A stretch of 64,000 nucleotides of DNA from Ryuthela nishihirai (lineage: Eukaryota > Arthropoda > Arachnida > Araneae > Heptathelidae). The notes under the pieces were generated by a model. The model saw only the letters and a list, made by a program, of their open reading frames with translations. It was not told the DNA's origin and made no database searches. The DNA lies in contig JAWZYU010000034.1 of assembly GCA_038380435.1 (NCBI GenBank), positions 25,585,404 to 25,649,403 on the forward strand. Direction: 5' to 3'. The stretch's first letter is position 1, and each line of letters begins with the position of its first letter. The position numbers and the translations under genes are program-made. This document shows positions 12,993 to 62,948 of the stretch, piece by piece.

Positions 12993-12998
12993 TTTATT
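12993..12998 (-). promoter_or_regulatory. candidate polyadenylation signal of FUT8-like gene
   Basis: AATAAA on the minus strand, about 56 bp past the stop codon at 13054-13056. Position and orientation fit a short 3' UTR. A six-base match in AT-rich DNA is weak evidence by itself. Confidence 0.35.
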
Positions 12999-13053: not shown

Positions 13054-13383
13054 TTAAAATGAAGGAAAGTCTTCAAGTTCGTATATTGGTTCAGTCTTGT
13101 AAGCAGGGATTTGCCCTCCCTTATTTGTCCTTTTGTTGGTTCTTATCAGAAATCCGTTGTTTGTCTTGCCATGGACAGCATCGGAAAGTCCCAATCTATG
13201 GTCAGGAACCAAGATGTCACCTTTCTTGAAAGAGGTTTCTTTCTCAGACAACTGATTATGGTCGTAGACGGCTCTGCGCAAAGGAGGACGCACATATGCA
13301 TAGTGATATTCAACATCCAATGAATGTACTCGAGGTAGATCATCACGTAGAACTTGCATCAATTCGTAGGCCACTCGACAGAG
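13054..13383 (-). CDS. FUT8: FUT8-like exon 8 (C-terminal, SH3-like domain)
   Basis: 330 bp, starting in phase 0 after acceptor ttcctcag, and ending in TAA at 13054-13056. It encodes LCRVAYELMQ, a HSLDVEYHY stretch, then an SH3-like domain with VYDHNQLSEKE, FKKGDILVPDH, TNKRTNKGGQIPAYK and a short acidic end. Length (109 codons) matches the family's C-terminus after CRVAYE. Confidence 0.92.
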   Translation of the reverse strand, partial: LCRVAYELMQVLRDDLPRVHSLDVEYHYAYVRPPLRRAVYDHNQLSEKETSFKKGDILVPDHRLGLSDAVHGKTNNGFLIRTNKRTNKGGQIPAYKTEPIYELEDFPSF

Positions 13384-16300
13384 CTGAGGAATAGAGAAGT
13401 AGTAATTTAGAAAAATACGAAACTTCTTTTCTTCAAAAAATATCATCATCTAATATATATATAGTAATCAGGCCCGGACTGGGGGGAAAGGTGCCATGTC
13501 CCCCTTTGATAATTCTAGTAAGAATAATGCAGATAAAAGATATTAAATTTGTGAATATTCTATGCAAGGACGTAGCGAAGGGATGATGACTCGGAATTCA
13601 AATTTTCCCAACTGAGATATTAAATAATTTCAATTATGTGTCTGTCCGGGACCTTCGCAGAATTTCGTTCCGTGTGTGCATGGGGTGGGGTGGGGGAGCA
13701 GCTTTCAAAATTTTGCCTCGATTTTGTAACCTCGCCATGATTTTACAAAGAAAAAACTACTTTTTTACATCTCACCTGAATTTTAGTTATTTCGAATTTT
13801 GCCAACTACCCAAGATCTTATGAATTTGTATCGATTTTGCCAACTCACCATAATTTTGGAGAAAAAATCCAAATTTTTACATCTGCACCGAATTTGCCAA
13901 GTCACTTCGAATTTTGCCAACTCACCAAAAGTTTTCCAAGTTGTCCCGATTTTGCCAACTCGCCATAATTTTACAGAAAGCGTCCCAATTTTTACATCTC
14001 CCCTGAATTTCCCATGTCACTGCGAATTTTGCCTACTCCTCTCCTTAATTGTAAAAAACAATCCTAATTTTCACAACTTTCCTCTATTTACCAATTCATT
14101 TCGAAGTTCCCCAACTTCCCCGGATTTTGCCTAGTTGACTTGATTTTGCCAACTATCCTTATTTTCAGAATTAGCCTCTATTTTACCAAGTGGCTTTGAA
14201 TTTTGACAAATTGCCCTAATTTCTGACAAGTTGCCTCGATTTTCCGAATTCACTATAATTTTACAGAAAAAAATCCCAATTTTTACATCTCCCCTGAATT
14301 TTGCCAACTTTTTAAGATTTTTCCAATGATTCTTAATTTCACAAAACCAATCCCAATTTTCACAACTCACCTGTATTTCACTAAATATCTTCGAATTTTG
14401 CCAACTGCCTTAGATTTTGTCAAGTTGCCTCGCTTTCGATAACTCTCTTAGTTTTTGCCAAATCGTTTAGAATTTTCTAACTCCTCTTAATTTTACAAAA
14501 AAATTCCCAATTTTCAAAATTCACTTCGATTTTACAAAGTCACTTCGATTTTTGCCAACTCCGATCAATTTTGGGGGGCAGCCTCCCCTCATCCCCCCAT
14601 AGCTACGACTCTGCCTCCTGTAACGGAAGGAAAATGAACCAAACACCGGAAGTGATGTCACGTTGACCTTGTAGTCAGTCTAGCACTGTGCTAGAACTAC
14701 AGTATCAAAGCAGGTGCAGTAGTTTGGTGGTTTATTTCAGTGTTGTGAAACGTCTACCAAATCTTTTTATGCTTTAATCGTAGTAAAGGTATATGAAACA
14801 CTAAAATGAGTTAAAGTGGTGTACATCTTCAATATTCCCTGGATGTAATGGAAATTATTCAACATGGTCAAATAATTGTTCCCAAAATAATTTGGAATAA
14901 TATGGAGCTGCGCAGATAGTGTTAGGAATGAAATGTATAGTATATTTCATTCCAAACAGTATGAGATTAATTTATTTTAGTTATTTTGAGTGTTTATTTT
15001 CTTTTAATGATTGATTATCATAAGACTTTATAAAAAATTACGTATTAAGTTTTATACTGAAATCATAATCTATACTAGTTTAGGAGTAAACCTTAGTGTG
15101 ATATCAGCGTAAACCTTTTTTAGGATTCTTGCAAATTAAAACAAATTTTCTGTATCATAAAATTATCTGGTTCTTACTTTAACAATAACAATCCTCATTT
15201 CTTACTGTCAAAAGGACGTTGTTTAATAACTCTAAAGTTTTTAGTCTATCGTTCCCAATTGCTATAATAGAAATAAGAAATGTACAGTATTGTAGCTACC
15301 TTTATTCTACAAGTTATATTTAAACGATATATTATTGCGAAAATGCTTAATGTATTGTGATTACATTTAAAGAATATATAAATTGAAATCCTTTAGTTTC
15401 AGTTTGCAAACCAAGGAGCAGATTGCCTCATATTTTGTTATAATTTAAAGATAAATATAAGAAAATATATTAACGCAACTCCAAAAAGAATTATTATGAA
15501 GTTAGTTTTTCTTGAATATTTTATACTGATCCTCTAAGAATTTTTCTCTCATTACAGAATACCTGAGTCTGATTAAAAAAAAGTGTATGATCCATAAGAC
15601 AAATCTATCGTAGGAACAGAAAATATTATAAAGAATTTTGATATCTCATGTTAAAAGTAATTTTTCTAAATTAAGAAGCGTTTGTAGGTATTATTACAGC
15701 CTTTGAAAATTAACGATATTTTTAATAATTTGTTTCGATATAAAGATTTCTTCTCGTGTTTAACAGAGTTGAAGATTAATAAACCGAGAATGTTTGGGTT
15801 TTGCAAGAGGAGCGATTTCTGCTTTCCATACAAAAGGCCAGTTTTCTTGAAACAGATGTGAAATATTCCAAAAATATATCATTTGAGTCCCTGAGTATTT
15901 CCTATTCTTTTTTCCGTAAATTTTATATTTTTTATTTCGTATGTGATGATTAGCTACTATATGTGAGTCAGTCAGTCAGTCAGTAAGTAATTCGTATATG
16001 ATGATTTCGTTTTTGAAGTCAGCAAGTATTTTACTCTGTGAGTGAGTAAATAAGTAAGTATGAAAGTAAGTACGTTTGTGAGTAAGTAATTCAGTGTATA
16101 AGTCAGTAAATGTGTAAGAAAGTGTGTAAGTAAGTCAGTAAATGTGTAAGTAAGTGCATAAGTAATTCAGCAAATGTGTAAGTTCATAAATGTGTAAGTC
16201 AGTCACTAAGTGATTTAGTGAATTAGTAAGTAAGAATGTGAGTCAGTACGTGTGTGGGTAAGTAAATAAGAACGTGAGTAAATAATTCAATACGCATGTG

Positions 16301-19300: not shown

Positions 19301-22300
19301 TGATGTCGATGATGGGAGACCTTTCTGAGAGGGGTGTCTGGCACTATTAACAACTTGAGGGACCTTTCTGAGAGGGGTGTCTGGCACTATTAACAACTTG
19401 AGGGACCTTTCTGCGAATATGATTGACTATATATTAATTAAGAGCAAATAGGCTAGTTCTGTCAGAAATTCCAGGTTGTATGAGGGAGCTGAAACTGTAT
19501 CTGACCATTACCTTGTTAAAAGTGTCTTGCAACTTAAACTAAAGAACTATTGTGCTAAGGTTAAAAAATTTACCTTTAATACTGAAGCTCTGATAAACCC
19601 AGTTATAGCTAAAGCTTACCATCATAGATTATTTAGTCATTATGGCAGTCATGGTTTGCTTACTACTGAAGTTGAGGAAGAATGGGACCATTTCAAGCAG
19701 GCTTTTCTTAAAAGTAACAGTGCTATTTTGGTAAAAGGGAGCAGAGGAGGCAAAATTATTTCAGTGATAAGGCATTTCAGCTAATATTGGAAAGAAAGAA
19801 CTGCAGGAATGTCCTTGATCAATACCCTACTAGTTATAGAAAGTATTACAAAGAGATTAATAAACGTTTAAAGAATCAGTTAGCAGCTAATAAAATTCTT
19901 TGACTTGATGGCTTGGCTGACAAAGCCGATGAAGCAGTTAGACAGCACAAAAAAAGAAAGCTGTACAGGATACTTAATATCTTGTGTGATAAAAAATGGA
20001 CAGATATACAGGGACTGAAGGACAAACAAGGTAAGGTTAATGAAGCTGAGATCCTGTCATGGCAAGTTGGGCTGGGCATTTCAGTGATGTTCTAAACAAT
20101 ATAGTTAGTTCTACTTCCATTATTTCTAATGATCATACATGCATTACTGGCTTTAATGTTGACTCTATATCATAGTCTGAAATAATTTTCGTTATTTTTA
20201 AACTAAAACATCATAAATACTTAAGGGTAGATGAAATTGCTTCTGAAATGCTAAGAGCTGAGAAAGTTTCAGTCACCACAAGGATGAGTGAAATTTTGAA
20301 TATCTTTTACTATAAAAGCATTGTTCTTAAGGATATTACTAGAGAAATTAATATCCATATTTTTAAAAACGGTGATCGCAGTTCTTGTGATAATAATACG
20401 GTTATCTGCCTGCTTTCTGTTCTAGGTAAATTTCTTTGCATGATTGTGCTTAATAGAATTAAGAATCTGGTTGACAGGCAATTGCGTGATGAGCAATGTG
20501 GATTCAGAAGTGATAGGGGATGTATAGATCAGATATTTGCACTCAGGCAGATTCTTGAGAAATGTTTAGCGTTTCAGAAACATTTGGTGATTTCAAAAAG
20601 GCTTCTGACTCTGTCGATCGACATAATTTGTGGTTGATTGTGTGATCGTATGGCATACCAGACAAGTTAGTTAACATAATGAAAGCTCTCTATAATAACA
20701 CTGAGTCGTGTGTGAGAGTTGGTAAGGCTTGTAGCAATTGGTTTACCGTTACTTCTGATGTTCGACAAGGGTGAATTTTGTCTCCTTTTCTCTTTAGATT
20801 GGTTATTTATTATGTTATGCGAAATTCACTTCAAGGGAAAGATTTTGGCCTTAAATGGGCCAGAGATATCAAAACTTCTGATTATATTATGCTGATGATC
20901 TAGCGCTTTTGACAAATGATATTGATGGTTGGGTTGGGTTGTTTTACCTCTGAGCGGCACTTTTTTGCACACCATGGGCTAAATGGCCAGGTCACATGGA
21001 CCCCGAAGGCTCAGAGAAGGTTGGGGGAGGGGACCCACTGGAACAGCTGTTCGGAGACAGATGGGAGCCTCCCGTCAAGGCCATCCAGCGTGTTCTTTAA
21101 CGCGCACAGGGTAGGGCTCTCCCACACACGGGGCCACGGCTTAACGTCCCATCCGACGGACGGCGGCCTTTCCAAGCCCATCGGTGTCCCCTACTGACCG
21201 TGGGCAGGGCGGGGAATTTTGCGGAGATAAATCTCAACGCTGACCAAGCTGGGACTCGAACCTGGGAACTACAGATTTCGAGCCTGGCGCGCTACCGACT
21301 GTGCCACCCCCGCCCTCAATGATATTGATGAGATGAACTCTGTCATTCGAACTGTTGATGAGACTGGTAACGGAGAAAACAGAGAGAAAACTAAAGTGAT
21401 GAAAATTAGTCAACCAGGTTGTGATTCAGTTAATCTGAATGTTTGTAATCTTGAGCAGGTGTATCAGTTTAATTAACTTGGGAGCTACGTAACAGATACT
21501 GGTGATGTGCGGCATGAGATTAACAGACGGATAGGGATTGCTGCCGGGACTTTTAAGAATCTATGGAGAGAGTGGGGAGATAGGCGTATACACCTAAAGA
21601 CTACAATTGGACTGTATAATAGTTTGGTTTTTTCTAGGGTTAGTTATAGTAGTGAAACATGGACACTTTGTAAACAAGATAACAGGAAACTAGATGCTTT
21701 TGATTCTAGATGCTTACGCAATATCTTGGGCATTAGGTGGTTCAACTTTGTAACTAATGATGAGGTTAGGCAAAGGAGTCTGCAACCTCCTTTAAGCAGC
21801 ATATTGTGCAGAGAGAGACTCCGTTGGTTTGGCCATGTTGCCCGTTTGGATAATTTTAAATTAGCGAATAGGATTATGAATAGTGTCCCTGAAGGCCTCA
21901 GAAAGAGGGGGAGACCTAGGATGCGGTGGGCAGACAATGTCAAACAGGACCTTGTTAGAATTGGTGTGCTGTGGCCAGATGCAGCAGATATAGATCAGGA
22001 TAGATATATTTGGAGAACTAAATTATACCATGTGGTTGGACCTCCCTAGCTCATCGCTGCTTAAGGACGATGATGATGATGATGATGTGCAAAAATAGCA
22101 GTTTAGTGGTAAAATAAACCAACAGAACTTGGTGCATTTGTGACTTGGCCACTTAGCGCATTGTGTGTAAAAGTTTTCTGTTCAGAGGTAGAACAAACCA
22201 GCTCAGCTTGGTGCATTTTGTAATTGGCCATTTAACCCATTGTGTGGAAAAAGAGTGCCGTTCAGAGATACAACCAACTCAGCTTGGGGCCTCTATAATT

Positions 22301-34300: not shown

Positions 34301-37300
34301 TTATATCCCAAATTATAACACTATTTTTATAATTCATCGTGTATAATATATCTTCCCTCTGCTGCACAAAAAATTTAAATTGGTGTGTTTATGTGATTTA
34401 TATATCGCCCAAATATTCATATCTAAATTTTTATCACAGACATATAAACATTCTGCAGTATTCATATTGAAAGGTGTTTTAACGAAGTTAAAGATATTAG
34501 TTTTAAAACAAAATACCCCCCCCTAAATCTGTTTCTTCCCCTATAGTCATAAAGCATATCATTACCATCAATTTTAAATGTATCAACTTCGTTTTCCGAT
34601 ACCCATATCTCACTGAGCACCGAAATATCAATTTTGTAATTAACCATTTCTAATAAGTGTTCTATTTCATTGAAATGAGCACGAATACTTCTAACATTAA
34701 TATGAAAAATAATATAATTCAGAGTATTATCACTATTTATATATTGCATAAACTCATTATCGCAACGAATAAAGTGTAATTAGCTACACTACTCTCTAAA
34801 GTAGGGATTCTCAACGTGGGGTACGCGGTAAAATTTTTTGAGTACGCCGTGAGAGCTCAAAAGTCGCTAGATCTAGTAACAAAGTCGCTAAGTTTGCAAC
34901 ACTGCTGTGCAAAAATGTCATTTATTCTGTTTACCGATATATAAGTAATTTATGAATACAAAATTAAATATATGTATATATATATATGTTTTATTTTATT
35001 CACATTATTACACTATAACTATAGTTTTTTCTATCTGTACAAGGGGTACGCCAGTTACATACACATTTCCAGGGGGTACGTGAAGCATAAAAGGTTGAGA
35101 ACCACTATGATGATATGATTGATGATATGATTGATTATGAATTATTTTATTCCCATTGTTATACTATAACTATAGTTTATATGCCAGTGAAGCATAAAAG
35201 GTTGAAAACCACTGCTCTAAAGCATCACTTCTCCACACTAAGTTATTATCCGTATAATTGAATGTTTTTGTAACCATTTTCAATTCAACATCGATAAATC
35301 TTCTTTACTCTTGATTCTAATTATCTTAGCGTTTTCATCTTTACTGATGAAAACTTTCACATTTTTAGTCCATACAAATTTATAATGATGCTTATGCTTG
35401 TGTTGTTTCGTTTCGTAGAGTAGCTCTTTATCCGACGGTGTCAAATGTTCAAAGTGATATGCTTTTGAACACGTGTATCTCGAAGATAATCCCAGAAAAT
35501 CAAATTCTTCTTCTTTGCCGCCATCAAAATCATGCTCCTTCATCCTTATCTTTAAATTGTAATATAATTGGTTTTATTTTGTTTCTGATGGATGTAGGCA
35601 CTCTATATGTATATGTCACCGACAAAGTTTTAAATCCGGCATTCTATAGAATGCCTAGGCATTGTATATAATGTCTAAAACTAGCCGGTAATGTATGAAA
35701 CGATTCATATTTCACACATTTCCTAGGCATTCTATAGAATGCCAGAAGGCAAATCGGCAAAGTATAAAATACTCCCGGCAGTGATGTTTAATGTCGCAAT
35801 GCGAGTCACGTGACTCTCGACGCTCTCCTCAAACAGAGAGCCAGAGCACTCAGTCCAATTCGAATTGACCAGTAAATGTTCCCCTGGGTCCCCTATAGGC
35901 TTACCCTGATTGCCAGATCCGCCAGTCCCTAGTGTCGGTAAAAAAGAGCGCCGTAGTTGGTCACTTTGGACACCAAAAAGACACCCTTCCATTCGGAAAA
36001 GCGCCCCCTAGCGTTGTAAGAGTGTAAAAGAGGGTTGCCTCAATAGGGATCCCAAAGTTTGAGAACCATAGCTTCCATAGAAAGACAGTTAAGGTCAAAA
36101 AACAGATTAAAAAAAGTCATCAAAAAACGACATATCACAAGCATCTCGGAACTCCACTGAAATAGATTTGACAAGTAGTAAAGTGAAATACGAGTATCCT
36201 AACTCGAATTGCAAACTTCGAATATTCAACACTTTACTAATTCGTTCTCACTTGGCTTTTCCTCATTTGGGGCGTTTTTTACTTGCTTGCTTACACGTTA
36301 CACTAAATTGGGAGGTCCTTATTCAGGCTTTCCCAGAACAAATAAGAAAATTCTTATAACAAATCCTCAAGTGTCTTTCTTGAGGGAATTAAGATATATT
36401 TTTTTTTCATATGATTTATTTTTTTTTTCATTTTTTATTATTTTTTTTCCTTTCTTTTTTTCATTCATTTTTTTATTTTTTTCATTCATTTTTTATTATT
36501 TTTTTTCCATTCATTTTTTTTATTATTTTTTTTGGTATATTTTTTTTTATAATTGATTCCAGATATTTGTCTCTTGCAGGAAGTTCAATAACAATTGATA
36601 AATTTTTTGTTGAAGTGAAAAATTAGGGGAATTTAGAATTGTATCTAAGGTAAATTCAGTAATTACAATATTCTCAAGTTCATGAAAAAATTTATTTCTT
36701 TGTAGGTTAAATTTGCCACAATTTAAGATTATATGGGTAGAATTTTCTTTTAAATTACATGATGTACAGTTAGGATTATCAATTAATTTTAAAAGGAATT
36801 TTGACTTGTTTAATAATATAGTATCTGTTTTTAATCGGAGAAGAGCGCTAATTTCTTGTCTATTAAAAACACTATTTGAGAAATAATTAATTTTGCTTGA
36901 GAGTAAATATCTAAAGTTAGGTTTAAACATAGAGTTAAGTTGAAAAAAATTTTCTGTCAAGGAGAATTCCAAATTATTTATCTCTTTTTTTGTATTTATA
37001 TAAAATTTATAAGTTGGAGAGCATATATTGAGGTCATGTGCTGCTTTCGCCATCTTATCCACTTCTTCATTTTCCTTAATACCAGTATGTCCTGGAGACC
37101 AACTTAGGTGGATTTTATTATTATTTTGAATAAAATTTTCTGTGTTTTGTTTAAGTAGTGAAGTAATGTAATATGGATATGTGGAGTATGATTGATACTG
37201 TGTTAATGTGAGAATAGCTCCTTTAGAATCAATAAAAATAACTATAAGTTGGTTTTTAGTATTTTGTAAAAGCCATTTCAAGGCAGCCAAAATGGCAAAA

Positions 37301-40300
37301 ATTTCTGCATGTAAGATTGAAGTAGGTTTTGGTAATATAAATTTTAAGGAAACATTAAAATATGGAATAAAAACAGCTGCAGAAGCAGAACCAGAGTCTT
37401 GTATGAAAAAACCATCTGTATATATTTCTAGAAAATTTTCAAAATGTTCCTTTTTAAAATTATTGAATAATTGTAAAATTGCTTCATTTGAATATTCATT
37501 TTAGAGTGTAATAAAGGAATTTCAGTATAAAATTTAGGAAGCTGATAACACCAAAATGGAATTAATTCTGTAATATCTCCTCTTAAGTCTTCCTTATGAA
37601 GGTTATTAAAAAAATTAAAGAGTGATGGTTGTTTTTTTAAAATTTTGTAAAAAGGTAGTCTTTTAAATTTTTGATAAAATGGATGGTCAGGAAGCTTATA
37701 ATGTAATCTAGAGTAATATTTTAAAATTAAGATAGGATGTCTTGTTTCGAAGTTTGGAAGAGCAGTTTCAGCCAAGAGAGCAAGTGAGGGGCAAAACCTA
37801 GGAAGACCTAGAGCTATCTTAATACATTTGCTTTGAATAATACTTAATTTTTTGAGTTTAGTTAAATTTGGGAAATCTATTAAATCAAAGCCGTATTCAA
37901 TTTTCGCTCTTATTAAATTTTTGTATAAAGTTATTAATGTATTAGGGTGCGAGCCTTCTTTTTTTAATGCAAAATATTTAAAAATATTAAGTAATTTGGA
38001 GCCTGAATTGTGTGCATGATCTAAGTGTGAATTCCAATTTAATTTTGAATCTAAATAAAATCCGAGAAGTTTACATTGATTGACTTGAGCAATTTTGTTG
38101 TCATTAATTTTTAAAACAAATTTTGGAGAAATATGTTTGTTTTTGGAGAAATGTATACAGTAGGTTTTATTTATATTTATTGTTAAATTCCATTTTTCAC
38201 AATACTTGGTTAATTTGTTAAGTTGTTCTTGAGTATTATGTTGTATATCATATTCATTTCTGTCTGAAGTCCAAAAAGTGAGGTCATCAGCATAGCTTGT
38301 ATAATTAAACTTATTATTAAATTTTTTTTTTAATATCATATAGATATAGATTAAAAAAATGGGTGAAAGGGTAGATCCTTGTGATAAGCCCTGTAAAATG
38401 TTATGAGAGTTAGAAGAAAAAGAATTAATTTTGACTTTAAATTTTCTGTTTTTTAAATATTTTGAAAGAAATATTATTAAGTTATAATCAATATTTGCTT
38501 TACTCAACTTTAATAAAAGATAATCAATTGAGACTGTATCGAAAGCTTGGGTTAGGTCAATTGAAACAGCCAATAAGATTTTTTCTTTTTATTAGCTAAA
38601 TAAATATCAGAAAGGAGTAATGAAACACATTCTTTGGATGAACGATTTTTCCTAAAGCCAAAAAAGTTTTTAGGTAAAATATTATTTTTGTCTATTTGCC
38701 ATATTAGTCTTCTGAACAAAAACTTTTCAAATAGTTTTAGGGAGTTGGAAAGTAAAGAAATAGGTCTATAAGAATTGAATTCTGTGGGGATTTTATTTGG
38801 CTTTTGTATAAAAATAATTAATATTTCATCCCATGTAGTTGAAATATTATGAGTAGTCCAGATGTTGTTAAATATATTTAAAAGTTTTTCCTTCCAGCAG
38901 TTTGGTAAATTTTTAAAAAACTTATTAGATATTAAGTCAGCTCCTGGTGCTGACTTTAGGTTTAATCTTTTAATGGCATTATTTAATTCTGGTAAAGTAA
39001 AAGGTAGATTGACACTAGTGTTGATTGATTTGAGTTTATTTAATTGAATTTTATAAAAGGATTTCTGCCTAATATCCAGTGTGGGAGCTTTTTGTACTAT
39101 TTTTAAATTTTTTGCAAAAAATTCTGCAGTTTGTTCAAGAGTATAATTATGTTGAATTGCAAACTGAGCAATAGGTAAAGATTGATTTTTTTCCTTAGAA
39201 ATAGATTTAAAGATCTTCCATATATTTAAACTTGAATTTTGAGTTGTGAGCTGTGAGGTAAATTCTTTCCAATCTTCTCTTATTGCGTTTTTTATAATGC
39301 GGACAGATTCATTACAGGTTATGAGGTTAATATTTCTGGCGGTAGTTCAGCAATGGTATTTTTCTCTTTTCGTAGAAAAATCCCGTACCATATATTTTGT
39401 ACTTCTTACATTTTCACATGCATCTTTTCAATAAAAGCCTTTTTCATACTTTGCCTAAATAGCATTTGTCATTCTATATAATGCCTAGGTATTCTATACA
39501 ATGCCTAGGGAAAGTATGTAATAATTCTCATATTTCATACATTGCCTAAAAACGCCGGGTATTCTATAGAATGCCGGCTTTTCATACATTGCCGGTAACA
39601 TATATATTGCTTATTTCTATCTTTTCTGTTACATTTAAGGCTTTCGGAATTCCTTCGAAGACTTTTTCTGGTTTCTCTCCTACATCATCAGGTACACACA
39701 TACAATTTTCAAATTAGAGTTTTTAGAATATTTCCAACTCATTCACTTGAGTCTGAAGGCCCAATACTTGATTAGCAAGAGCCTTATTTTCAGTAATTAA
39801 AATTTAATTTTTTCGTTTCTGGTATATCACTTTTTAGTTCTTCCATAAACGTTTTTAGGTCCATTATAAACTCAGAACTAAACCCGAGAGACTTTTTCAT
39901 TTTAGTCAAATCAAACATTAATCCCTTATTTAAACTTTCAAACTCTTCTTTAATACAGTTTCAAATTTCACTCGCAAGATTCACTAGTGAGATCTCTAAA
40001 GTTCAGTTCTTTTTCAATTCCAGATTGTTTTTTTTTTTCTCTATAAGACCAGATGTATTCCTCTCTTTATTGAAATTCTCACTATCAATGCCTTTCACAT
40101 TTAACTGCGATGAAATGCCTATCCGATCAGCTGCTGATCCAAGATGTATTTTATTTTTTCCCTTTATACTTTTATTTTCCGAGCATAACCCACATTTTCA
40201 TTTGGCATGTCTTTCAGAAGAAGTTTTCCTAACATTTTCTTCGTTTAATCCAAAAAATAATAAAGAAAAACATGCTAACATATGTTACATTTATACAGTC

Positions 40301-46300: not shown

Positions 46301-49300
46301 GCTGTCCCCAATTCTCTCAATGTCGTCGTTGATGGGACAAGGGCCCGAACACTCTGCTCGACGGTATCCCAAGATTTTCGATGGGATTTAAATCTGGGCT
46401 TCTAGGTGGCCAATTCATTATTTCAAAGTCAGCAGAATGCTCTTGCAACCATGCAGCAGCCAACCTGGACCTGTGAGATGAAGAGTTGCCTTGCTGGTAG
46501 ACGCCTTCCACATTGGGATCCATGATGGCCATAAATGAGTGTAAATTGTCACCCATGAGTTTTACGTACCGGGATGCATTGAGAGTCATCGGTACACGTA
46601 CCAAAGTTCCTGCAAACGTCCAACTGAAGACTCCCCAGGCCATCACTGAGCCACTACCAACTTGTACTGTTCCTACCTGACATGCAGAATCCAGGACTTC
46701 ATGAGGTTGGCGACATACGCTCAGTTTCCCACCGGCGTGATGAAGGTTAAATCGGGATTCGTCACTCCAGGCTATCCGTTGGAAATTTTCGATGGCCCAG
46801 TTTCAAAGTTGATTAGCCCAGGGAAGGTGTTGAGTCCGGTGTCATGCCGTTAGAAGTGGGACTCTCGTAGGTCGGCGGCTCCCGAAGCTGAGACTATAAA
46901 GTGAGTGTGAAACGAGAAAATCCAAGTTCGTTGACAATTTCGGTGATCGAGTGTCCCATCCGTCAGGCACCTACGACCTGCCCTCTGTCAAATGCATCTA
47001 AATCCCGCGCCTTTCCCATTACGCTTCTCACGACGAATATTTTGCGAAGTCAAAGCTCACAGCTATATATGATCAGAGTTTCAATCACGCATGCTCGCAA
47101 ATGCAAATGCAAAATAGCAAATGCGGGACTTGCGGTACTGAATTTGGATAACGTCTCCTATCCCTAATTCAATAGCACTTCAGTGTATACATATTTATAT
47201 CTTCCCAATTTTTAGGGGGAGGGAGAGTGGGGATGCTCAGTCTGTAGCGCGCCAGGTTTGCAATCTACAGTTCTCAGGTTCGAGTCACAACTGTATCTGC
47301 CCTCAGTGAAAAAGGGGCTTGAAAACGCTGTCATCCATCAGATGGGATGATACGTCATGACCCATGGGAGCCAGGGGTCCTAGATCCCCCGACCGGAAAA
47401 TACTGTCGTGTATATTCATATTATATATGTCCAACACTAAAAATAAGTTTAAGAAACAACTACAAAATTTCATTCCATATAGAATATTATTTTAACCTTT
47501 CGTGTCTGGTGGAATATTTTGGTAATTGGGAAACCCTAGTCAAGTCATACCATATTCTTATTCTCAGCCTCCCCCCCCCCCGCAACCCTCCAACCCTCCC
47601 CGAAACTAATCCAACACCACCACCAGAACTAAATCCTGGGTATGTGCCTGACCCCGTGATCAGGAGACCTATACGTTGTGCATGTTAAACAACACACTGA
47701 ATGGCCTTGATGGGAGACTTCCATCTGTCTCCTAATACCTCCCAAGTGGACTCCTTTCCCCCAACCTTCTCTGAACTTTTGGCACCCTTTTGCCCATTGT
47801 ATACAGAAAAATGACGACCAGAGGTAAAAAAACAACAACAACCCAATTCAAACCTTGGAAGAAGTAGGGATGATGATCTTGCGATATGTTTGATGCAAAA
47901 TTTCATTTTAAAGTTCGTTTTGAACAGATTGTCTCTATGACATATAAATATCTGGGATATATAATTAGAAAAATAGAATAATTAGATATAGAATAATTAG
48001 TATATTAAAAAAAATAAAATGTGACTGTGTTACATTATAATGATTTGCAAATTCTTTAATTATGAAAAGTATACGTTTATAGCAAATTTTATATACACTT
48101 ACCTTTGGATTGGATTGTTTTACCTCTGAGCTGCACTTTTTTGCACATCATGGGCTAAATGGTCAGGTCACATGGACCCCGAAGGCTCAGAGAAGGTTGG
48201 GGGAGGGGACCCACTGGAACAGCTGTTGGGAGACAGATGGTAGCCTCCCGTCAAGGCCATCCAGCGTGTTCTTTAACATGCACAGGGTATGTCTCTCCCG
48301 CACACGGGGCCACGGCTTAACGTCCCATCCGACGGACGGCGACCTTTCCAAGCCCATCGGTGTCCCCTACTGACCGTGGGCAGGGCGGGGAAATATACAC
48401 TTACCTAATAACCTGTTGCTCCACCTTTTGCCCTCCCAACAGCAGTCAGACGGTTTGGTAAGTACTCAATGAGACGTTGAAATAATGGAAGTGTATTTCC
48501 GCCCATTGAGCGAGGATCGCCTGTCGTAGAGCATCCACAGTTGCTGGTGGGGATTGGCGGAATCGAACAGATCTTTCCAATTCGTACCACAAATTCTCAA
48601 TGGGATTGAGGTCCGACGATCGTGGGGGCCATTCGAGTGGGGTAAACTCATCTGAATGCTCCTGGAGCCAATTGGTCGCCACTCGGGAAGTATGCGGTGT
48701 GCCGCTGCCCTGTTGAAAGATAGTGTCATGGTGTGGAAAGAGAATCGTTACATTATATGGTTTTTTAAAGGACGGATGTAGAAGGTCAGTGAGGATGTTT
48801 ACGTACCTTGTTCTGGTGACGGAGGTCTCTTCGGGTACGAGTGAGGTCAGTGAGGGTGTAGAAGGTCAGTGAGGATGTTTACGCACCTTGTGCTGGTGAC
48901 GGAGGTCTGTCTCTTCAGGTACGAGTGAGGTCAGTGAGGATGTAGAAGGTCAGTGAGGATGTTTACGTACCTTGTGCTGGTGACGGAGGTCTCTTCAGGT
49001 ACGAGTGAGGTCAGTGAGGATGTAGAAGGTCAATGAGGATGTTTACGTACCTTGTGCTGGTGACGGAGGTCTCTTCGGGTACGAGTGAGGTCAGTGAGGG
49101 TGTAGAAGGTCAGTGAGGATGTTTACGTACCTTGTGCTGGTGACGGAGGTCTCTTCAGGTACGAGTGAGGTCAGTGAGGGTGTAGAAGGTCAGTGAGGAT
49201 GTTTACGTACCTTGTGCTGGTGACGGAGGTCTCTTCGGGTACGAGGTGCCTAAAAAGAAGCCCATGTACATGCCCCCCAAACAGTTACACCGCCACCACC

Positions 49301-55300: not shown

Positions 55301-56131
55301 TTTATAGTTATATTTTGAAACTAACTAGAAAATAATAGTCAAATCTTTAAAAGAACAGGAACTTTAGTAGTAATAACTTTAAATGAACACAAAAATTGGT
55401 AATCACATTTGTAAAAGAACGTGAAATTTACTAGGCACAACTTTAAACCACTACGAAATTGATTAGCCACATCTTTAAAACAAAAATGTGAAATACAGTT
55501 ATGACATCTATAAAAGGTTACGAAGTTTTAGTGGTTATACCTTTGAAGGAACACGAACTTTAGTAGTTGCATTTCTTAAAGTTAATTAATTAATTAATTA
55601 CCTTTTATAGCCTTCGGCATGCTCGATTCCATAGTTTATAATTTGTTCGAACTCTTTGAATTTGTCCTTACCAGGGTTTTTTGCAATATTTCGTAATTTC
55701 ACCATATGGTCATTAAGGAAAAGAACCAGATCTTCTGTTGTCTGCTTAATGTACATCCTTGATTTCGACTCTGGAAAAGCGAACTCAGAATTAACAATTG
55801 CGCTGTTAGCAAATGCTTAAAACGCTTAAAATTATTATATATGAGCAAGACCAAATCTATGGGGATGGGGGGGGGGCAAAGATCATAATCTGTACCCTTG
55901 AAAATGTTAGACAGAAAAACGTTATTGAACTTGTGCATATTTCATGTATTTTTAAATAACATTTAGACCTTTAAACACGGAGAAGAAATACTGGAATGGA
56001 AATTCAGTCTCTTGGTTCCTCTCTTTACATTATTTTAGATCCAGACCTGTATGTGAGTCATTGATATGCAGCATAATAATAAGAAGGGCGTAGATAAGCC
56101 AGATCAAGCGTCTATTGATAAATTTATTCAT
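13054..56131 (-). CDS. FUT8: alpha-1,6-fucosyltransferase (FUT8-like), 8 exons
   Basis: Golgi type II enzyme that adds core alpha-1,6-fucose to N-glycans (GT23). The eight exons listed below join in phase to about 490 residues with no stop. Seen in order: basic start and membrane anchor (1-28), helical stem (30-123, ending IVQERLYHLQ), the NPKNC..LLCDL and FQPLSE blocks (124-207), VRIHDNPMAWW (about 228-238), the nucleotide-binding IHVRRTDK (272-279) with following SE and EEYM, ATDE (about 317-320), LVCTLSSG (about 374-381), and a C-terminal SH3-like domain. From memory of the human enzyme the essential R365, R366, D368, K369, E373, Y382, D409, D453 and S469 all have matches, while D410 is Glu here. 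The human protein is 575 aa; the missing length is mostly stem, so an exon may be undetected. FUT8 identity is firm; the first exon is less so. Confidence 0.9.
13640..14600. repeat. degenerate tandem repeat in FUT8 last intron
   Basis: Variants of gaattttgccaactcacc, ataattttacagaaaaa, tcccaatttttacatctccc and ctgaattttgccaagtcact alternate for almost 1 kb, with a loose period of 110-130 bp and a shorter internal period. Open frames inside are by-products. Confidence 0.8.
14640..15955. other. AT-rich intron DNA, no feature seen
   Basis: Read on both strands and found no coding, SINE, LINE or repeat signature. It lies within the last FUT8-like intron (13384-22568). Confidence 0.4.
15958..16570. 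repeat. degenerate tetranucleotide microsatellite (GTAA/GTCA/GTGA)n
   Basis: About 600 bp of gtaagtaagtgagtcagtca-type sequence, with units of four bases and many substitutions. A short direct repeat of tgtaaatgttcgatgacatc follows at 16600-16665. Confidence 0.92.
16905..17446 (+). pseudogene. RTE-type LINE, copy D fragment
   Basis: It matches copy A from ataacactgagtcgtgtgtg through the GVRQGC region, motif C and the RRIGIAARTFKNLWR block, truncated at both ends. Motif C reads YSDD instead of YADD (tattctgatgat near 17105). Frameshifts and stops are present. The Trp codon that is TGA in copy A is TGG here. Confidence 0.87.
17500..18000 (-). repeat. unclassified dispersed repeat X, copy 1
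   Basis: Its reverse complement matches 25800-26165: agaaccggccaag.ctagcacctaatg, ccgccttctcgtggtgcag, acctttcaaaagagata, ggagggctgccag, and ctgctga.gagtggtcaac. No coding potential and no terminal repeats were recognised. Confidence 0.75.
18338..18547 (+). pseudogene. Ty3/gypsy integrase C-terminal fragment
   Basis: The frame MVHPWESPYTVVNRINEMVY, then RIRRCPTTKYKVLHVDRVAPF, is the GPY/F module and tail of a gypsy-type integrase (WxGPYxVxxRINxVVYRI..KxKVxHVDRLAPY). Only about 70 codons remain. It is followed immediately by an LTR-like start, as expected for the 3' end of a provirus-like element. Confidence 0.82.
18549..19265 (+). mobile_element. gypsy LTR remnant
   Basis: It begins TGTTACGACAGATG right after the integrase tail. 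Two blocks are shared with 28801-29235: the start (caataaaaccgtcat) and a later stretch (ttcattcacgaagataatt, tagagtttgtaagaattgta). The right boundary is uncertain. No second LTR is seen nearby. Confidence 0.6.
19268..22088 (+). pseudogene. RTE-type LINE, copy C, longest copy, split by a SINE
   Basis: It keeps the end of the endonuclease (MIDYILIKSK, a stop, then RLYEGAETVSDHYLV with the SDH catalytic motif), the linker, most of the RT (GDRSSCDNN, NRIKNLVD.QLRDEQCGF) and the full C-terminus (180 codons, 21507-22049). A 43-bp segment is tandemly repeated at 19315-19412. About 14 bp are missing before the FKKAFDS motif, causing a frameshift. A SINE-A sits at 20928-21317. The 3' end is (GAT)n at 22067-22087. 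Confidence 0.88.
20928..21317 (-). mobile_element. complete SINE-A with 13-bp TSD inside LINE copy C
   Basis: Flanked by aatgatattgatg at 20915-20927 and 21318-21330, so the element is exactly 390 bp. It has the full head (antisense, 21240-21316; one A-box base changed, gactgtgcca), the body, and the tail gaggtaaaacaacccaaccc. This copy defines the family ends. Confidence 0.96.
22088..22430 (+). repeat. ~76-bp tandem array of SINE-A tails
   Basis: Four to five units each contain the SINE tail block, of the form ggccatttagcccattgtgt, a short run of a, gtgccgttcagaggtaaaac, then a joiner such as caaaccagctcagcttggtgc. The landmark ccattta/ccactta falls near 22148, 22225, 22300 and 22375, a period of about 76 bp. 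It begins directly at the (GAT)n end of LINE copy C. Confidence 0.82.
22569..22722 (-). CDS. FUT8: FUT8-like exon 7
   Basis: 154 bp. Acceptor gtttctttcag, first base completes a Lys codon, then FPSYTFIYN, TRYSNDSFWGILADV and SDILVCTLSSG. Donor GGG|GTAAGT at 22568, phase 0, matching exon 8. Covers the conserved D and CT.SS residues of the GT23 catalytic site. Confidence 0.93.
22805..22880. mobile_element. possible hAT-type end remnant
   Basis: The stretch agtaattcccaactttt followed by ccgcggcacaactttgagg resembles the terminal sequence of hAT MITEs such as the one at 62949-63416. No matching second end or TSD was found. Confidence 0.3.
22960..23080 (-). mobile_element. internally deleted SINE-A copy
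   Basis: The tail complement (gattgggttgttttaccta) and the region around caagacaccgatggt-like sequence (agaccatcggtatctcctat) are joined with the middle of the body missing. The head is absent. Confidence 0.65.
23128..23530 (-). mobile_element. SINE-A copy, full but diverged
   Basis: Reads from the tail complement (gggttattttacctctta) through the core (ttaaagtcccatccggcgg) to the head (ggttggactcgaacc). The head carries a 20-bp insertion near 23483-23503, between B-box and A-box regions. Confidence 0.85.
23535..24570. repeat. intron DNA with a degenerate AGGTCA-containing repeat
   Basis: Four loose copies of a pattern aaatt.cagatcc..tgtg.cttcaaggtcaaataaaggtca occur near 23720, 23850, 24205 and 24330. 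An AT-rich (TA)n stretch lies at 24000-24100. Nothing coding. Confidence 0.5.
24578..24754 (-). CDS. FUT8: FUT8-like exon 6 (GDP-fucose-binding motif)
   Basis: 177 bp. Acceptor ccttttacag; the first A completes Gly with exon 5. Encodes IHVRRTDKIRSEAKSHAVEE, then YM..., and KVFVATDEPAVIRELKQ. Donor CAGAA|GTAAGA. The RRTDK signature is the strongest single mark of the FUT8 family in the window. Confidence 0.95.
25100..25533. repeat. 42-bp minisatellite, about 10 units
   Basis: Units of ttggaacagaatgccaatcc followed by ggtacttgatgttcacaaacc, period 42 bp (for example acttgatgtt at 25128 and acttaatgtt at 25170). Because 42 is 14 codons, both strands show periodic open frames (VLDVHKPLEQNA on plus, FVNIKYR.GI.FQR on minus). 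A degenerate remnant is at 29576-29655. Confidence 0.88.
25800..26165 (+). repeat. unclassified dispersed repeat X, copy 2
   Basis: Inverted relative to copy 1 at 17500-18000, with long shared blocks (ccgccttctcgtggtgcaga, acctttcaaaagagatac, gcactggtgggcttctgt). It ends where an antisense SINE-A head begins. Confidence 0.75.
26168..26243 (-). mobile_element. isolated SINE-A tRNA-like head
   Basis: Reverse complement of the head only: cagctgggactcgaacc, attacgagcctggcgcgct, accgactgagccacccctgc. There is no adjoining body in the same orientation. Both Pol III boxes look intact, so it could in principle still recruit Pol III. Confidence 0.85.
26352..26641 (+). mobile_element. headless SINE-A with 13-bp TSD
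   Basis: Flanked by cagcctcaaagga at 26339-26351 and 26642-26654. The inserted copy begins at tccccgacctgc, i.e. after the head and leader. The body and tail (gtgccgctcagaggtaaaac) are intact. Its 5' end falls at the same consensus position as the copy at 48105-48392. Confidence 0.93.
28736..29235 (+). mobile_element. solo gypsy LTR with palindromic 5' end
   Basis: It shares its start (TGTTACGAGAGACT at 28801, followed by caataaaacca) and an internal block (ttcaccaagataattatgt, tagagtctgtaagacttgta) with the LTR at 18549. In front of it a 33-bp direct repeat (gttacgagagacaggtttac..) is present two to three times. It interrupts a LINE. Confidence 0.6.
28790..28840. repeat. 51-bp near-perfect palindrome
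   Basis: Arm 28790-28814 and arm 28816-28840 are exact reverse complements (25 bp each) around a single A. The inner half is the LTR terminus TGTTACGAGAGACT facing its own inverse. Confidence 0.95.
29576..29655. repeat. remnant of the 42-bp minisatellite
   Basis: The sequence atgccattccggtgcttgat, then ttgtacttgatgttttcga, matches the unit of 25100-25533 in the same orientation, now 4 kb away across the LINE. Confidence 0.65.
29660..30300. other. no gene; possible old tRNA-derived SINE traces
   Basis: At 29735-29780 there is an A-box-like gtagtgattagcgtacctg, and at 30068-30150 an antisense B-box-like gattcgaacccc. Neither has a recognised body. The rest is AT-rich. Confidence 0.3.
30303..30540 (+). 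pseudogene. duplicate of LINE ORF1 fragment
   Basis: Near-identical to 26886-27130, including the same inserted stretch aataataataactttatt..gcttgtcagca. A shared insertion means the two descend from one already-broken copy rather than from two independent insertions. Confidence 0.8.
30535..31050 (-). mobile_element. SINE-A copy with a 162-bp duplicated end
   Basis: The tail half (ctgaatggcactttctttta..aagcttgttctt) occurs twice, starting with caaaaggttgaaatccc at 30521 and 30683 (period 162). The second copy continues into core and head (attatgagtttggagcact, actgagccaccc to 31043). The duplicated segment includes 20 bp of the neighbouring LINE, so it arose after insertion. Confidence 0.82.
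31195..31790. mobile_element. head-to-head SINE-A mosaic
   Basis: A plus-strand head (31196-31250, cacagtcggtagcgtgtcag) is followed by an antisense leader and head (31300-31412) and then an antisense body (31418-31790). The two heads face each other with about 100 bp between them. Within the antisense body a small hairpin (aagaacttttttgagaagaa followed by gttctt) interrupts the sequence. Confidence 0.75.
31835..32024 (-). CDS. FUT8: FUT8-like exon 5
   Basis: 190 bp. Acceptor ataattcttttag, donor CTGG|GTAAGT. Completes Ser from exon 4, then PTVRGLLTKLPSDI, RLVRIHDNPMAWWYGQFMYY and a linker ending SVAG. Matches the family block RLVRVHGDP.VWWVSQF. Phase 1 in, phase 2 out, consistent on both sides. 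Confidence 0.95.
32340..34070 (+). pseudogene. LINE 5' region and ORF1, plus-strand copy
   Basis: Contains 5' leader, a Cys-rich N-terminal part (33000-33110, C..C pairs typical of a PHD-like finger) and two ORF1 segments: coiled-coil-like DIRNCIEEEFESLNKGLTL (33388 on) and C-terminal YETKQHKHKHHYKFLWTKDG (33950-34020). Frames are broken between them. It is closely related to the inverted copy at 34140-40790. Confidence 0.75.
34802..35214. mobile_element. hAT-type MITE with 8-bp TSD
   Basis: Flanked by ctctaaag at 34794-34801 and 35215-35222. Ends are tagggattctcaacgtgg and, inverted, cagtggttttcaacctttta, typical of hAT non-autonomous elements. The right end is duplicated internally (gcataaaaggttgagaacca and gcataaaaggttgaaaacca), together with a gttatactataactatagtt block. 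No ORF. 413 bp. Confidence 0.92.
35615..39599. mobile_element. TIR element with 18-bp palindromes, carrying a LINE
   Basis: Left end GTCACCGACAAAG.. and right end (inverted) GTTACCGGCAATG.. are imperfect terminal inverted repeats extending about 40 bp into GGCATTCTATAGAATGCC. Copies of this perfect palindrome lie at 35638-35655, 35726-35743 and (one base changed) 39558-39575, with variants at 39470-39510. The pre-insertion site can be read from the homologous LINE copy near 33750, giving a TSD of about 5-9 bp (tatat core). Without the inner LINE the element is under 1 kb and codes for nothing visible. Superfamily unknown. Confidence 0.8.
36385..39455 (-). pseudogene. near-intact RT/RNase H LINE (I/Jockey group)
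   Basis: Minus-strand ORF2 part. Upstream RT (about 39000-38600): SAPGADLI, SYRPISLLSNSLK, FGFRKNRSSKE. Main RT ORF 38573-37428 (381 aa) has motif A DLTQAFDTVS, motif B GLSQGSTLSP and motif C YADD. One frameshift near 37500 separates it from RNase H (IYTDG, SILHAEIFAI, FIDSKGAIL, SWSPGHTGIKENEEVDK) with all four catalytic acids. A C..C..H..C knuckle follows (CTSCNLKENSTHIILNC). It ends in an A-rich tail seen as a T-rich strand at 36390-36545. 5'-truncated near 39455. Confidence 0.88.
40990..41070 (+). mobile_element. possible SINE-B head trace
   Basis: The stretch ccccgtggccgagtagtaga resembles the SINE-B tRNA-like head at 45300 (cccgtggccgagtggttagc). The body is not recognisable. It runs into SINE-A fragments. 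Confidence 0.35.
41095..41858. mobile_element. mosaic of at least three SINE-A fragments
   Basis: 41095-41325 is an antisense body. 41336-41400 is a short sense piece (ttgacaggaggtttccttct..). 41400-41656 is antisense body plus head (ggactcgaacctgg..accaactgagtcacctcc). 41660-41858 is a sense 3' half (cacattaaagagcatactgg..gagcggtaaaac). Orientation switches at each join, suggesting repeated insertion or rearrangement. Confidence 0.75.
42028..42280 (-). CDS. FUT8: FUT8-like exon 4
   Basis: 253 bp. Acceptor cttttcatgctcatcag, phase 0; donor AATA|GTAAGA, phase 1. Encodes NPKNCSDAPVLLCDLTNPYG, FASGIHDVLWCFIKAYHSK, then W..T..NWEETFQPLSEKC. Conserved Cys and the FQPLSE..C block mark the entry of the catalytic domain. 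The plus-strand open frame here is its shadow. Confidence 0.95.
42465..42738 (-). mobile_element. headless SINE-A copy
   Basis: Antisense body from the tail complement (gttttatctctgagcgaccc) to ggtgtcctattgaccatggg, where it stops near the same point as the two TSD-flanked headless copies. No clear TSD. Confidence 0.82.
42740..44830. repeat. intron DNA with a 25-27-bp minisatellite at 44002-44104
   Basis: Five units of cccattcttgtacaattttt with short joiners lie at 44002-44104. The rest (42740-44000 and 44110-44830) is AT-rich with no recognised element on either strand. Confidence 0.6.
44841..44955 (-). CDS. FUT8: FUT8-like exon 3 (end of stem)
   Basis: 115 bp. Acceptor tttttacctcag, first G completes Arg; donor CAG|GTAATG, phase 0. 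Encodes IIVKEFEELAQQ, GSYTLQKKEKKLLEDIVQE and RLYHLQ. It aligns with the family's LTELVQRRITYLQ helix just before the NPKDC block, and the exon boundary falls at that same point. Confidence 0.92.
45293..45510 (+). mobile_element. SINE-B copy 1 (second tRNA-derived family)
   Basis: The head cccgtggccgagtggttagc..gggacctgggttcgagtccc looks like a Ser/Leu-type tRNA with good A and B boxes. The body is ttttctgctgaggtcctgcc, tctactgtggcgtataaact, agctgcttgaggggg. Two other copies share the body. Confidence 0.88.
45525..45825 (+). mobile_element. SINE-A copy, head partly lost
   Basis: Starts within the head (atctgcagttcccaggtacg), then body (gtccatcggatgggacgtaa) and tail (gtgctgctcgg). It lies immediately downstream of SINE-B copy 1. 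Confidence 0.82.
46134..47187 (-). pseudogene. Tc1-like transposon, copy 1, full length, dead
   Basis: Terminal inverted repeats cactgaagggccattaaatt..agggatag at 46136 and their inverse ending ctatccctaattcaatagca..cttcagtg at 47185, with TA flanks. Transposase on the minus strand: start at 47019 (MGKARDLDAFDRGQVV), HTH (SITEIVNELGFS), then MMAWGVFSWTFAGTLVRVP at 46646, the catalytic WPPRSPDLNPIEN near 46400 and RRVAAVIRVKGG near 46170. Many stops and shifts. A 12-bp inverted repeat, ccttgtgatata, abuts its left end. Confidence 0.9.
47225..47845 (+). mobile_element. SINE-A copy split by ~290 bp
   Basis: Head and leader at 47225-47365 (ctcagtctgtagcgcgcca, ggttcgagtcac, catccatcagatgggatg). 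The body resumes at 47645 (accccgtgatcaggagac) and runs to a tail with (caacaac)n at 47845. The intervening 47366-47645 includes a poly-C run and is not recognised. Confidence 0.78.
48105..48392 (-). mobile_element. headless SINE-A with 14-bp TSD
   Basis: Flanked by atatacacttacct at 48091-48104 and 48393-48406. The inserted copy ends at ccccgccctgccc (reading sense), without leader or tRNA-like head, at the same place as the copy at 26352. The tail is an (AATCC)n variant. The target is the terminal repeat of Tc1 copy 2. Confidence 0.95.
48770..49245. repeat. 80-bp tandem repeat, 6 units, inside Tc1 copy 2
   Basis: The landmark gtagaaggtcagtgaggatg recurs at 48778, 48858, 48942, 49022, 49102 and 49182 (period 80, once 84). 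On the minus strand the unit contains RYVNILTDLLHP of the transposase, so it is an amplified coding segment. Units are over 95 percent identical, hence recent. Confidence 0.94.
50874..51500. repeat. 370-bp-period tandem duplication
   Basis: The block from ggttttggtgtaagaaatac at 50874 to gtgtttaattactagggaa is repeated from 51244 with about 90 percent identity and a few small deletions. Confidence 0.9.
51659..51925. repeat. 132-bp tandem duplication
   Basis: gggtttttcataagggggag at 51659 and gggtttttaataagggggag at 51791 start two units that share aaaatagtacttatcactgt and caacagatggcgcca. Confidence 0.9.
52510..53020. other. AT-rich intron DNA, possible LINE 3' trace
   Basis: The plus strand at 52620-52760 gives short peptides like FSAPKIFNKLPRII and LKTWIDEFIDIE in broken frames, reminiscent of a LINE C-terminus (LPRxIxxxxxxxxFKxxLK). 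Too short and broken for a firm call. Confidence 0.3.
53028..53200 (+). mobile_element. SINE-B copy 2
   Basis: Degenerate head (gagtggctattgcgcgtggc, ggttcaagccc) and body (tttctgctgaggtcccatcg, ctatggtgtataaactta, aacagctgcttgagtgg) match copy 1 at 45293. Confidence 0.8.
53792..53905. mobile_element. half copy of palindromic MITE
   Basis: Left half only (tacagtcgctcaaaatagta..tccgaacactatgg..ctggcaaccttcgtgtcacgtg). At the centre of symmetry it switches to another partial copy and then to the palindromes at 53927-54020. Confidence 0.82.
53927..54020. repeat. two adjacent perfect palindromes with shared motif
   Basis: Palindrome 1: arms 53927-53941 and 53945-53959 (15 bp, spacer caa). Palindrome 2: arms 53964-53991 and 53993-54020 (28 bp, spacer t). 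Both contain ctggagcgtgtRcag. A further half-unit (aactgcacacgctc) follows. The sequence does not occur in other MITE copies. Confidence 0.95.
54091..54306. mobile_element. full palindromic Tc1/mariner-type MITE, copy 3
   Basis: 216 bp including TA at both ends. The halves are inverse of each other around position 54198/54199, and the central 40 bp (ctggcaaccttcgtgtcac on each side) are perfect. Same family as 11915-12127. Confidence 0.92.
54560..55565. repeat. degenerate ~35-bp repeat field in FUT8 intron 2
   Basis: Variants of tttaaaagaacacgaaattt followed by agtagtcacatc recur about 20 times at loose spacing, ending next to FUT8 exon 2. It is interrupted at 54821-54962 by a Tc1 fragment. 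Confidence 0.72.
54821..54962 (-). pseudogene. 142-bp Tc1 transposase fragment
   Basis: Matches 49497-49650 of Tc1 copy 2 (ggacacaatatggatgttga, gcataagattgtggacatgc, caattccttataatgatga). On the minus strand it reads IIIRNCKGTVGQITLELNEG, then MSTILCTKTVHRTI. No ends present. Confidence 0.8.
55602..55770 (-). CDS. FUT8: FUT8-like exon 2 (coiled-coil stem)
   Basis: 169 bp. Acceptor cgcttttccag, donor AAAG|GTAATT. Encodes SKSRMYIKQTTEDLVLFLND, HMVKLRNIAKNPGKDKFKEF and EQIINYGIEHAEGYK. Corresponds in position to the lumenal helical stem that mediates dimerisation in the family. Phase 1 in, phase 2 out. Confidence 0.88.
56047..56131 (-). CDS. FUT8: FUT8-like exon 1 (signal anchor), tentative
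   Basis: ATG at 56131 with G at -3. The frame gives MNKFINRRLIWLIYALL plus IIMLHINDSHT: a short basic cytosolic tail and a hydrophobic anchor, as in a type II Golgi enzyme. It would end CAG|GTCTGG, and the phase (1) fits exon 2. The donor is weak and the stem would be about 70 residues shorter than in vertebrates, so another first exon remains possible. Confidence 0.6.
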
Positions 56132-62090: not shown

Positions 62091-62668
62091 TGTAAGTAAA
62101 AAAAGTTTAAGAAGTTAAGTCTTCAGTAATCCTTTTGACTCCAACCAGCAACAGCAACAAGAGGAAAAGTCTATCTCCCACTGGCTATGTCCACACTTGT
62201 GCGTTTTACGTGCGCTAGACTCATGCACTGTGGCGAATGCCTCTAGCATAAGTGACGCATGCGCAAAAGCATGCCTCAAATCAGTTGAACGGCACCGTTT
62301 TCAGTGATGCACACAGTAGCGCCCATGCTTCCACCAGCAGTGGAATTTTGTTCAACATTCCTTGCAACTTCGCAGTTTGTCTGGAAGGTTTCGTTCTCTT
62401 TTTGTAATTATTGAGCTTGTGTTTTTTGTTCCCCATGTCGTCAGAACAAACATTGGCCTTTATAAATTATTATTAATAAATATATTCGTTATAGAATATA
62501 ATAAATTATTCGTTATAAAATTATTATTAATAAAATAATAATATTATTGCCAAAAATAAAAATAAAATCTTCATTTATAATATTTTCACTAAATGTATCT
62601 CTATGTATTCTACCTATGTTATATAACCCTACAAGTACTTTTTTGTCGTGATATGGAACCTTCAGCCG

Positions 62669-62828
62669 ACATAAAGTAATTCATGTTCATTCATTCTTAT
62701 ACCCGCTAACATAAAGTAATTCATGTTCATTCATTCTTATACCCGCTAACATAAAGTAATTCATGTTCATTCATTCTTATACCCGCTAACATAAAGTAAT
62801 TCATGTTCATTCATTCTTATACCCGCTA
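62669..62828. repeat. 40-bp tandem repeat, 4 perfect units
   Basis: acataaagtaattcatgttc followed by attcattcttatacccgcta, starting at 62669, 62709, 62749 and 62789. Units are identical, so the expansion is very recent. Confidence 0.96.
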
Positions 62829-62948
62829 ACATAGCAGCATCAGTCACGTCCATTGCAACTTCACGTCTACACCGGTGAAAAATTGAAAACTATTTGACGC
62901 ACAGGTGTAGACAGTTGAAGGCATGCGTCCAACGCATTCCATCTAAAG

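Follow-up and report, generated by a model that had tools for sequence, protein, structure and literature searches.

A FUT8-like gene of the spider Ryuthela nishihirai points to a separate chelicerate branch of GT23 with conserved donor chemistry and an altered acceptor side

A 64,000-nucleotide stretch of the genome of the spider Ryuthela nishihirai (assembly GCA_038380435.1, contig JAWZYU010000034.1, positions 25,585,404 to 25,649,403; hereafter the window, numbered from its first letter) carries a multi-exon gene related to FUT8, which is described as alone in making core fucose in humans (PMC7033129) and as present in one copy in most animal genomes (PMC4204859). The sequence comparisons and trees described below place this gene in a separate branch of family GT23, here named FUT8L. 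We put at roughly 0.6 the probability that this is a coding gene whose product is a type II membrane protein of the Golgi and a member of GT23, one that would transfer fucose from GDP-fucose, with inversion, to an acceptor other than that of FUT8. Core fucosylation of N-acetylglucosamine (GlcNAc)-ended N-glycans is probably not the role of this enzyme, and our guess for its acceptor is a different form of N-glycan (protein-bound paucimannose or oligomannose).

Eight minus-strand exons, running from 56131 to 13054, join in phase into 1473 nt (490 amino acids and a stop), as a sequence-only reading of the window had proposed. All seven introns are GT-AG, their phases are 1, 2, 0, 1, 2, 2 and 0, and there are no internal stops. 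By approximate splice-site weights, the donors of exons 2 to 7 score 1.7-5.5 bits (lowest for exon 4) and that of exon 1 scores 0.4 bits, the weak exception already singled out in that reading. The features are as follows, with exon sizes given as codons between their flanking phases and residues in human numbering.

56131-56047, minus strand: exon 1 (uncertain); ATG, MNKFINRR and a hydrophobic anchor, ending in phase 1 with donor CAG/gtctgg
55770-55602, minus strand: exon 2; opening of the coiled coil, entered in phase 1 and left in phase 2, tblastn match to P0001
44955-44841, minus strand: exon 3 (1-38-0); end of the coiled coil, codon count and phases those of the published chordate exon 1-38-0
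42280-42028, minus strand: exon 4 (0-84-1); Cys-rich beginning of the catalytic domain, CDLTNPYGFASGIHDVLWC, with human C218/C222 and K216/G217 changed; published chordate exon 0-78-1
32024-31835, minus strand: exon 5 (2-62-2); catalytic domain, human Asp295 stretch absent near the exon start; published arthropod exon 2-78-2
24754-24578, minus strand: exon 6 (1-58-2); IHVRRTDKIRSEA catalytic loop (R365, K369, E373) and ATDEP; equal to the published chordate and aphid exon 1-58-2
22722-22569, minus strand: exon 7 (1-51-0); ADVFML..VCTLSSG (D453, S469; Q470 changed to G); published chordate and aphid exon 1-50-0
13383-13054, minus strand: exon 8; LCRVAYE, an altered loop SLDVEYHYAYVRPPLRR, an SH3-like domain longer by about 10 residues, and a TAA stop
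12993-12998, minus strand: AATAAA, a possible poly(A) signal 56 nt past the stop, by consensus match only

The structure of the gene from exon 2 to exon 8 is clear. In an alignment of 473 columns the joined protein is 33% identical to human FUT8 (E 2e-93), and tblastn with the same human sequence matched exons 3-8 at 29.6-69.3 bits. Each of five FUT8 queries, taken at its best 11 matches, hit these six exons in sequence with scores of 29.3-114 bits, whereas the reversed window gave at most 23.1 bits. Exon 3 scored 29.3-37.0 bits, barely above the one off-exon chance match in the forward window (28.5 bits), so its assignment also needs its place, phase and size. With these queries, exon 2 was matched by one of the five (P0001, 32 bits), exon 1 by none, and no second copy of the gene was seen in the window. 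Searched as a protein, the joined exons score 365.3 bits with the Pfam profile FUT8_N_cat (E 6.9e-109, curated cut-off 27.6), which makes the product a GT23 member, and the eight distinct solved-structure sequences that they match are all FUT8 (best E 1e-81).

As in human FUT8 (PDB 6tkv, 6x5t), a coiled coil, a catalytic domain and an SH3 domain follow one another in that order. Although the SH3_1 score of the window protein (11.5 bits) lies under the Pfam cut-off of 22.9, the predicted fold of exon 8 superposes on the FUT8 SH3 domain with a root-mean-square deviation of 1.1 Å over 58 residues, the fold being kept around an insertion of about 10 residues; the proposed SH3-like end thus holds. 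The bacterial alpha-1,6-fucosyltransferase NodZ shares 14-16% identity and is not known to have a coiled coil or SH3 domain.

The intron phases are also like those of FUT8 genes. Published fut8 exons include 1-38-0 and 0-78-1 in chordates, 2-78-2 in arthropods, and 1-58-2 and 1-50-0 in aphid and chordates (Juliant et al. 2014, PMC4204859); two exons of the window are equal to these, one (1-51-0) is one codon off, and two have the same phases but differ by 6 and 16 codons. Mapped on human FUT8, the window junctions fall at residues 161, 199, 298, 361, 420 and 470, and the human protein cut there would give exons 1-38-0, 0-98-1, 2-62-2, 1-58-2 and 1-50-0, of which the first, fourth and fifth have published sizes. 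The junction at residue 298 sits in a gapped region of the alignment; if it corresponds to the published phase-1 site (residue 278, as computed from 0-78-1), about 6 residues would have been gained before it and about 20 lost after it, a loss that would include Asp295. Introns shared with published fut8 genes argue against a retrocopy origin, and the likely source of the FUT8L branch is a duplicated FUT8 gene that already had introns.

In human FUT8, the donor and catalytic contacts are Y250, H363, R365, K369, E373, T408 (backbone), D453 and S469, with R365, K369 and E373 each needed for activity; the two core GlcNAc are contacted by K216, G217 (backbone), D295 and Q470, and the branches by D494 (backbone), D495, Y498, Q502, V531 (backbone), H535 and A374 (Garcia-Garcia et al. 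2020, PMC7033129). The window protein keeps every donor and catalytic contact, and the RRTDK catalytic core named in the sequence-only reading is present with R365, K369 and E373 intact. On the acceptor side, unlike human FUT8, it has lost most N-glycan contacts: K216 is N, G217 is P, D295 and its stretch are absent, Q470 is G, D495 is V, Y498 is H, Q502 is V and H535 is T. Scored over ten acceptor-side letters, the window protein agrees with human FUT8 at 0/10, against 10/10 in each of nine canonical chelicerate FUT8 proteins checked. C218 and C222, which we take to form a disulphide in human FUT8, are replaced by Y and S, and the six remaining cysteines that were examined are unchanged. The Asp-Glu pair, described in the sequence-only reading as Asp-Asp in the vertebrate enzyme, proved not to be distinctive when residues were compared in 42 of 63 aligned rows (28 from the FUT8L branch and 14 others, including Oppiella).

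This pattern extends well beyond one spider. Over 242 sequences (the best 120 of 134, of 957 and of 139 matches), the ten acceptor-side letters fall into two heaps, 139 sequences keeping 10/10 and 47 keeping 0/10. A sorting rule divided the same 242 into 173 canonical, 47 FUT8L-type and 22 neither, the last including firefly, schistosome and another fluke, acanthocephalan, nematode, collembolan, mussel, protist, mites and fragments. The window is one of the 47 FUT8L-type sequences; all 32 of them that carry a species name are chelicerate, and 40 of the 47 have the exact catalytic letters. In the conservation set of 49 (the 47 with P0009 and P0073, both from the 22), the less redundant FUT8L sequences all (29/29) have R365, D368, K369, E373 and T408, where the mean majority share is 0.52 over 470 columns. 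New letters are common across the branch: N216 in 24/28, P217 in 23/28, G470 in 28/28 and A500 in 27/27. Since the catalytic letters are invariant and some new letters are widely shared, a pocket that is changed but used fits better than decay.

The members of the branch come from spiders, a scorpion, horseshoe crabs, ticks and mites. The best protein matches of the window gene, among those listed, are chelicerate and, where named, mostly called alpha-(1,6)-fucosyltransferase-like; Uloborus P0004, Limulus P0003, Centruroides P0007 and Oedothorax P0002 (a hypothetical protein by its database name) are in the same branch at 43-48% identity. Common to them and the window are motifs around NPxGFASG-HDVLWC, SSG-CR and SLD..YA, and the window protein combines the first two with absence of D295 and placement in the branch. 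In IQ-TREE (57 of the 242 sequences, picked for spread; quick rather than thorough search; midpoint rooting, which is arbitrary), the 21 FUT8L rows form one side of a branch with a support of 100 in the Shimodaira-Hasegawa-like approximate likelihood ratio test (SH-aLRT), and the window is not grouped with canonical FUT8; it groups with spiders, scorpion and two further sequences (SH-aLRT 92) and falls outside the named species. FastTree places the window with spiders and P0001 (support 0.957) and canonical Nephila FUT8 next to human FUT8, and its support for FUT8L is 0.329 without Oppiella and 0.999 with it, beside Biomphalaria at 0.727. Long branches occur (Galendromus, Folsomia). Of the alpha-1,6-fucosyltransferase identity first given to the gene, membership of GT23 is borne out; the separate branch and the lost acceptor letters speak against canonical FUT8.

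Constraining FUT8L to group with canonical chelicerate FUT8 was not rejected (approximately unbiased test, p-AU 0.906), and the constrained tree outscored the one from the unconstrained quick search by 36.9 log units. A single duplication in a chelicerate ancestor is possible, as this grouping stands unrejected. Two further GT23 proteins, P0053 (from the mite Oppiella nova) and P0068, lack D295 and the 218/222 cysteines and have A rather than G at 470; we place them, by tree position, as a far arm of the FUT8L branch, and they were counted with FUT8L in the tree and left out of the 47. P0041 of Ixodes scapularis carries the plain database name alpha-(1,6)-fucosyltransferase, yet has FUT8L letters and a FUT8L position in the tree.

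Taken together, these features would fit a Golgi enzyme that binds GDP-fucose as FUT8 does, through R365, K369, H363, D453 and S469, with the equivalent of E373 acting as the base in an inverting fucose transfer. The fucose would then go elsewhere than to the innermost GlcNAc of a complex N-glycan ending in GlcNAc, since most of the residues that would hold this glycan are gone and several have been replaced by branch-wide letters. More tentatively, chelicerates may have a second, ancient GT23 fucosyltransferase beside core FUT8, with a conserved pocket of its own and an undescribed linkage or acceptor, that databases name as core FUT8. Several points weigh against a changed acceptor. D494, A374 and V531 are unchanged from human FUT8, the human contact at G217 runs through the backbone, and D295 is counted as absent because of an alignment gap of ambiguous placement. 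The FUT8L columns are also uneven, with no common replacement at 218 (8/28), V495 in 18/27 and F498 in 16/27 (H in the window). For the window itself the predicted fold matches FUT8 over exon 8, and the full-length match, in which the same fold as FUT8 is predicted, comes from the relative P0002 and not from the window protein. Exon 1 and the stem are doubtful as well, and the model as joined might not work, given that a 4-residue stem linker nearly abolished human FUT8 activity.

That the gene encodes an ordinary core alpha-1,6-fucosyltransferase despite its drift, perhaps with looser acceptor needs and sharing the work with canonical FUT8, seems unlikely to us. The 33% identity to human FUT8, the FUT8 fold of P0002, the kept catalytic letters and the database names of relatives, alpha-(1,6)-fucosyltransferase(-like), all speak for such an enzyme. 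However, in the three species checked (Uloborus, Limulus and Ornithodoros) FUT8L coexists with a canonical FUT8 that has the Pfam SH3 domain and 10/10 acceptor-side letters. A folded GT23 protein that transfers nothing, such as a lectin-like or regulatory partner of FUT8, is more doubtful still: the altered acceptor site, the loss of one human cysteine pair and the very short stem as modelled could be read in this way, but the three residues each needed in human FUT8 are unchanged in all 29 less redundant members. Exons of several pseudogene copies stitched together, as the 43 kb with mobile elements and the weak exon 1 might suggest, can hardly explain exons that are collinear on one strand, agree in phase without a stop or a second copy in the window, and match published fut8 genes in phases and in three sizes exactly or within one codon.

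If an acceptor other than that of FUT8 is indeed used, FUT8L, its chemistry intact and its acceptor side rebuilt, would be a natural experiment in FUT8 target choice and would offer a short list of residues for testing that choice. It would also caution against naming FUT8L proteins core fucosyltransferases, and bear on the glycans of ticks and mites, where FUT8 copies have multiplied. The expansion in ticks is already in print, with one set called orthologous to human FUT8 and, in the passages describing it, no split into two types and no mention of acceptor residues (PMC7157712); tick FUT8L copies in our trees fall in the FUT8L branch. Among the papers listed in literature searches on core fucosylation, chelicerates and GT23, which covered no subscription papers, none gave an account of the branch or its acceptor site, which is weak evidence of absence. 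Acceptor drift after FUT8 duplication may, from the letters, have happened several times. FUT8 copies of the firefly Abscondita terminalis (P0031, P0054, P0066), Pomphorhynchus (P0096, P0100) and schistosome (P0115, P0117, P0118) keep the eight catalytic letters but differ at several acceptor-side positions, and each of them has N at 470.

The gene had also been called complete, with a membrane anchor and a short stem. The hydrophobic stretch of the proposed anchor is present in exon 1 (Kyte-Doolittle hydropathy, KD, 1.93), and the place of that exon in the gene rests on hydrophobicity and phase, with no homology match and a 0.4-bit donor. With thresholds chosen to lie just under exon 1's own scores, the two strands of the 64 kb together gave three phase-1 anchor exons of this kind, and of five anchor-bearing candidate first exons within 8 kb (two with a common donor) only exon 1 as modelled is in phase 1. 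The stem of the model is indeed short, with 103 residues from anchor to Cys204 compared with 126-184 in 25 of 26 FUT8-like relatives examined; the remaining relative, P0056, has 98 residues and no clear anchor (KD 0.76), and P0010 has no clear anchor either (KD 1.07). The window model thus falls short of the stem length of chelicerate FUT8L relatives, among them P0002, and the gene as modelled may be incomplete.

The short stem may come from an error in how exon 1 was modelled. Between exon 2 and the window end, no missing stem exon was found at acceptor >=4, donor >=3.5 and end phase 1; a relaxed search (acceptor >=2.5, donor >=2, end phase 1 or 2) gave none between exons 1 and 2 and four candidates, two with a common donor, from exon 2 to the window end. 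The true first exon could also lie beyond 64000, as introns in the gene reach 10.6 kb. We consider a truly short stem no more likely than a stem exon that was missed or a first exon lying past the window edge. Replacing the human FUT8 stem with two glycine-serine repeats (4 residues) left almost no activity, which 22 repeats (44 residues by our count) restored (PMC9709245).

The placing of the gene within mobile DNA is borne out: remnants of reverse transcriptase, RNase H and DDE transposase occur in the window, some of them within the introns, which total about 41.6 kb. A repeat-filled span of 43 kb is not in itself unusual, large introns having been published for other animal fut8 genes (PMC4204859). 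No Rfam model matched at gathering score, and one open reading frame (ORF) tested of the 20176-22049 remnant, at 21477-22049, had no Pfam match. The other features of the window are these.

36547-39346, minus strand: long interspersed nuclear element (LINE)-type element with reverse transcriptase and RNase H in split ORFs, in the intron between exons 4 and 5
5451-6788, plus strand, and 61680-62114, minus strand: reverse transcriptase remnants, by Pfam
20176-22049, plus strand: apparently a more broken relative of the 5451-6788 element, by eye
46317-46802 and 48446-48865, minus strand: two DDE_3 transposase fragments, presumably Tc1/mariner-like, in the intron between exons 2 and 3
326-1659, 3109-3947, 48774-49245 and 62669-62833: long tandem arrays, with units of, for example, 92, 192, 295, 80 and 40 bases and 78-100% match
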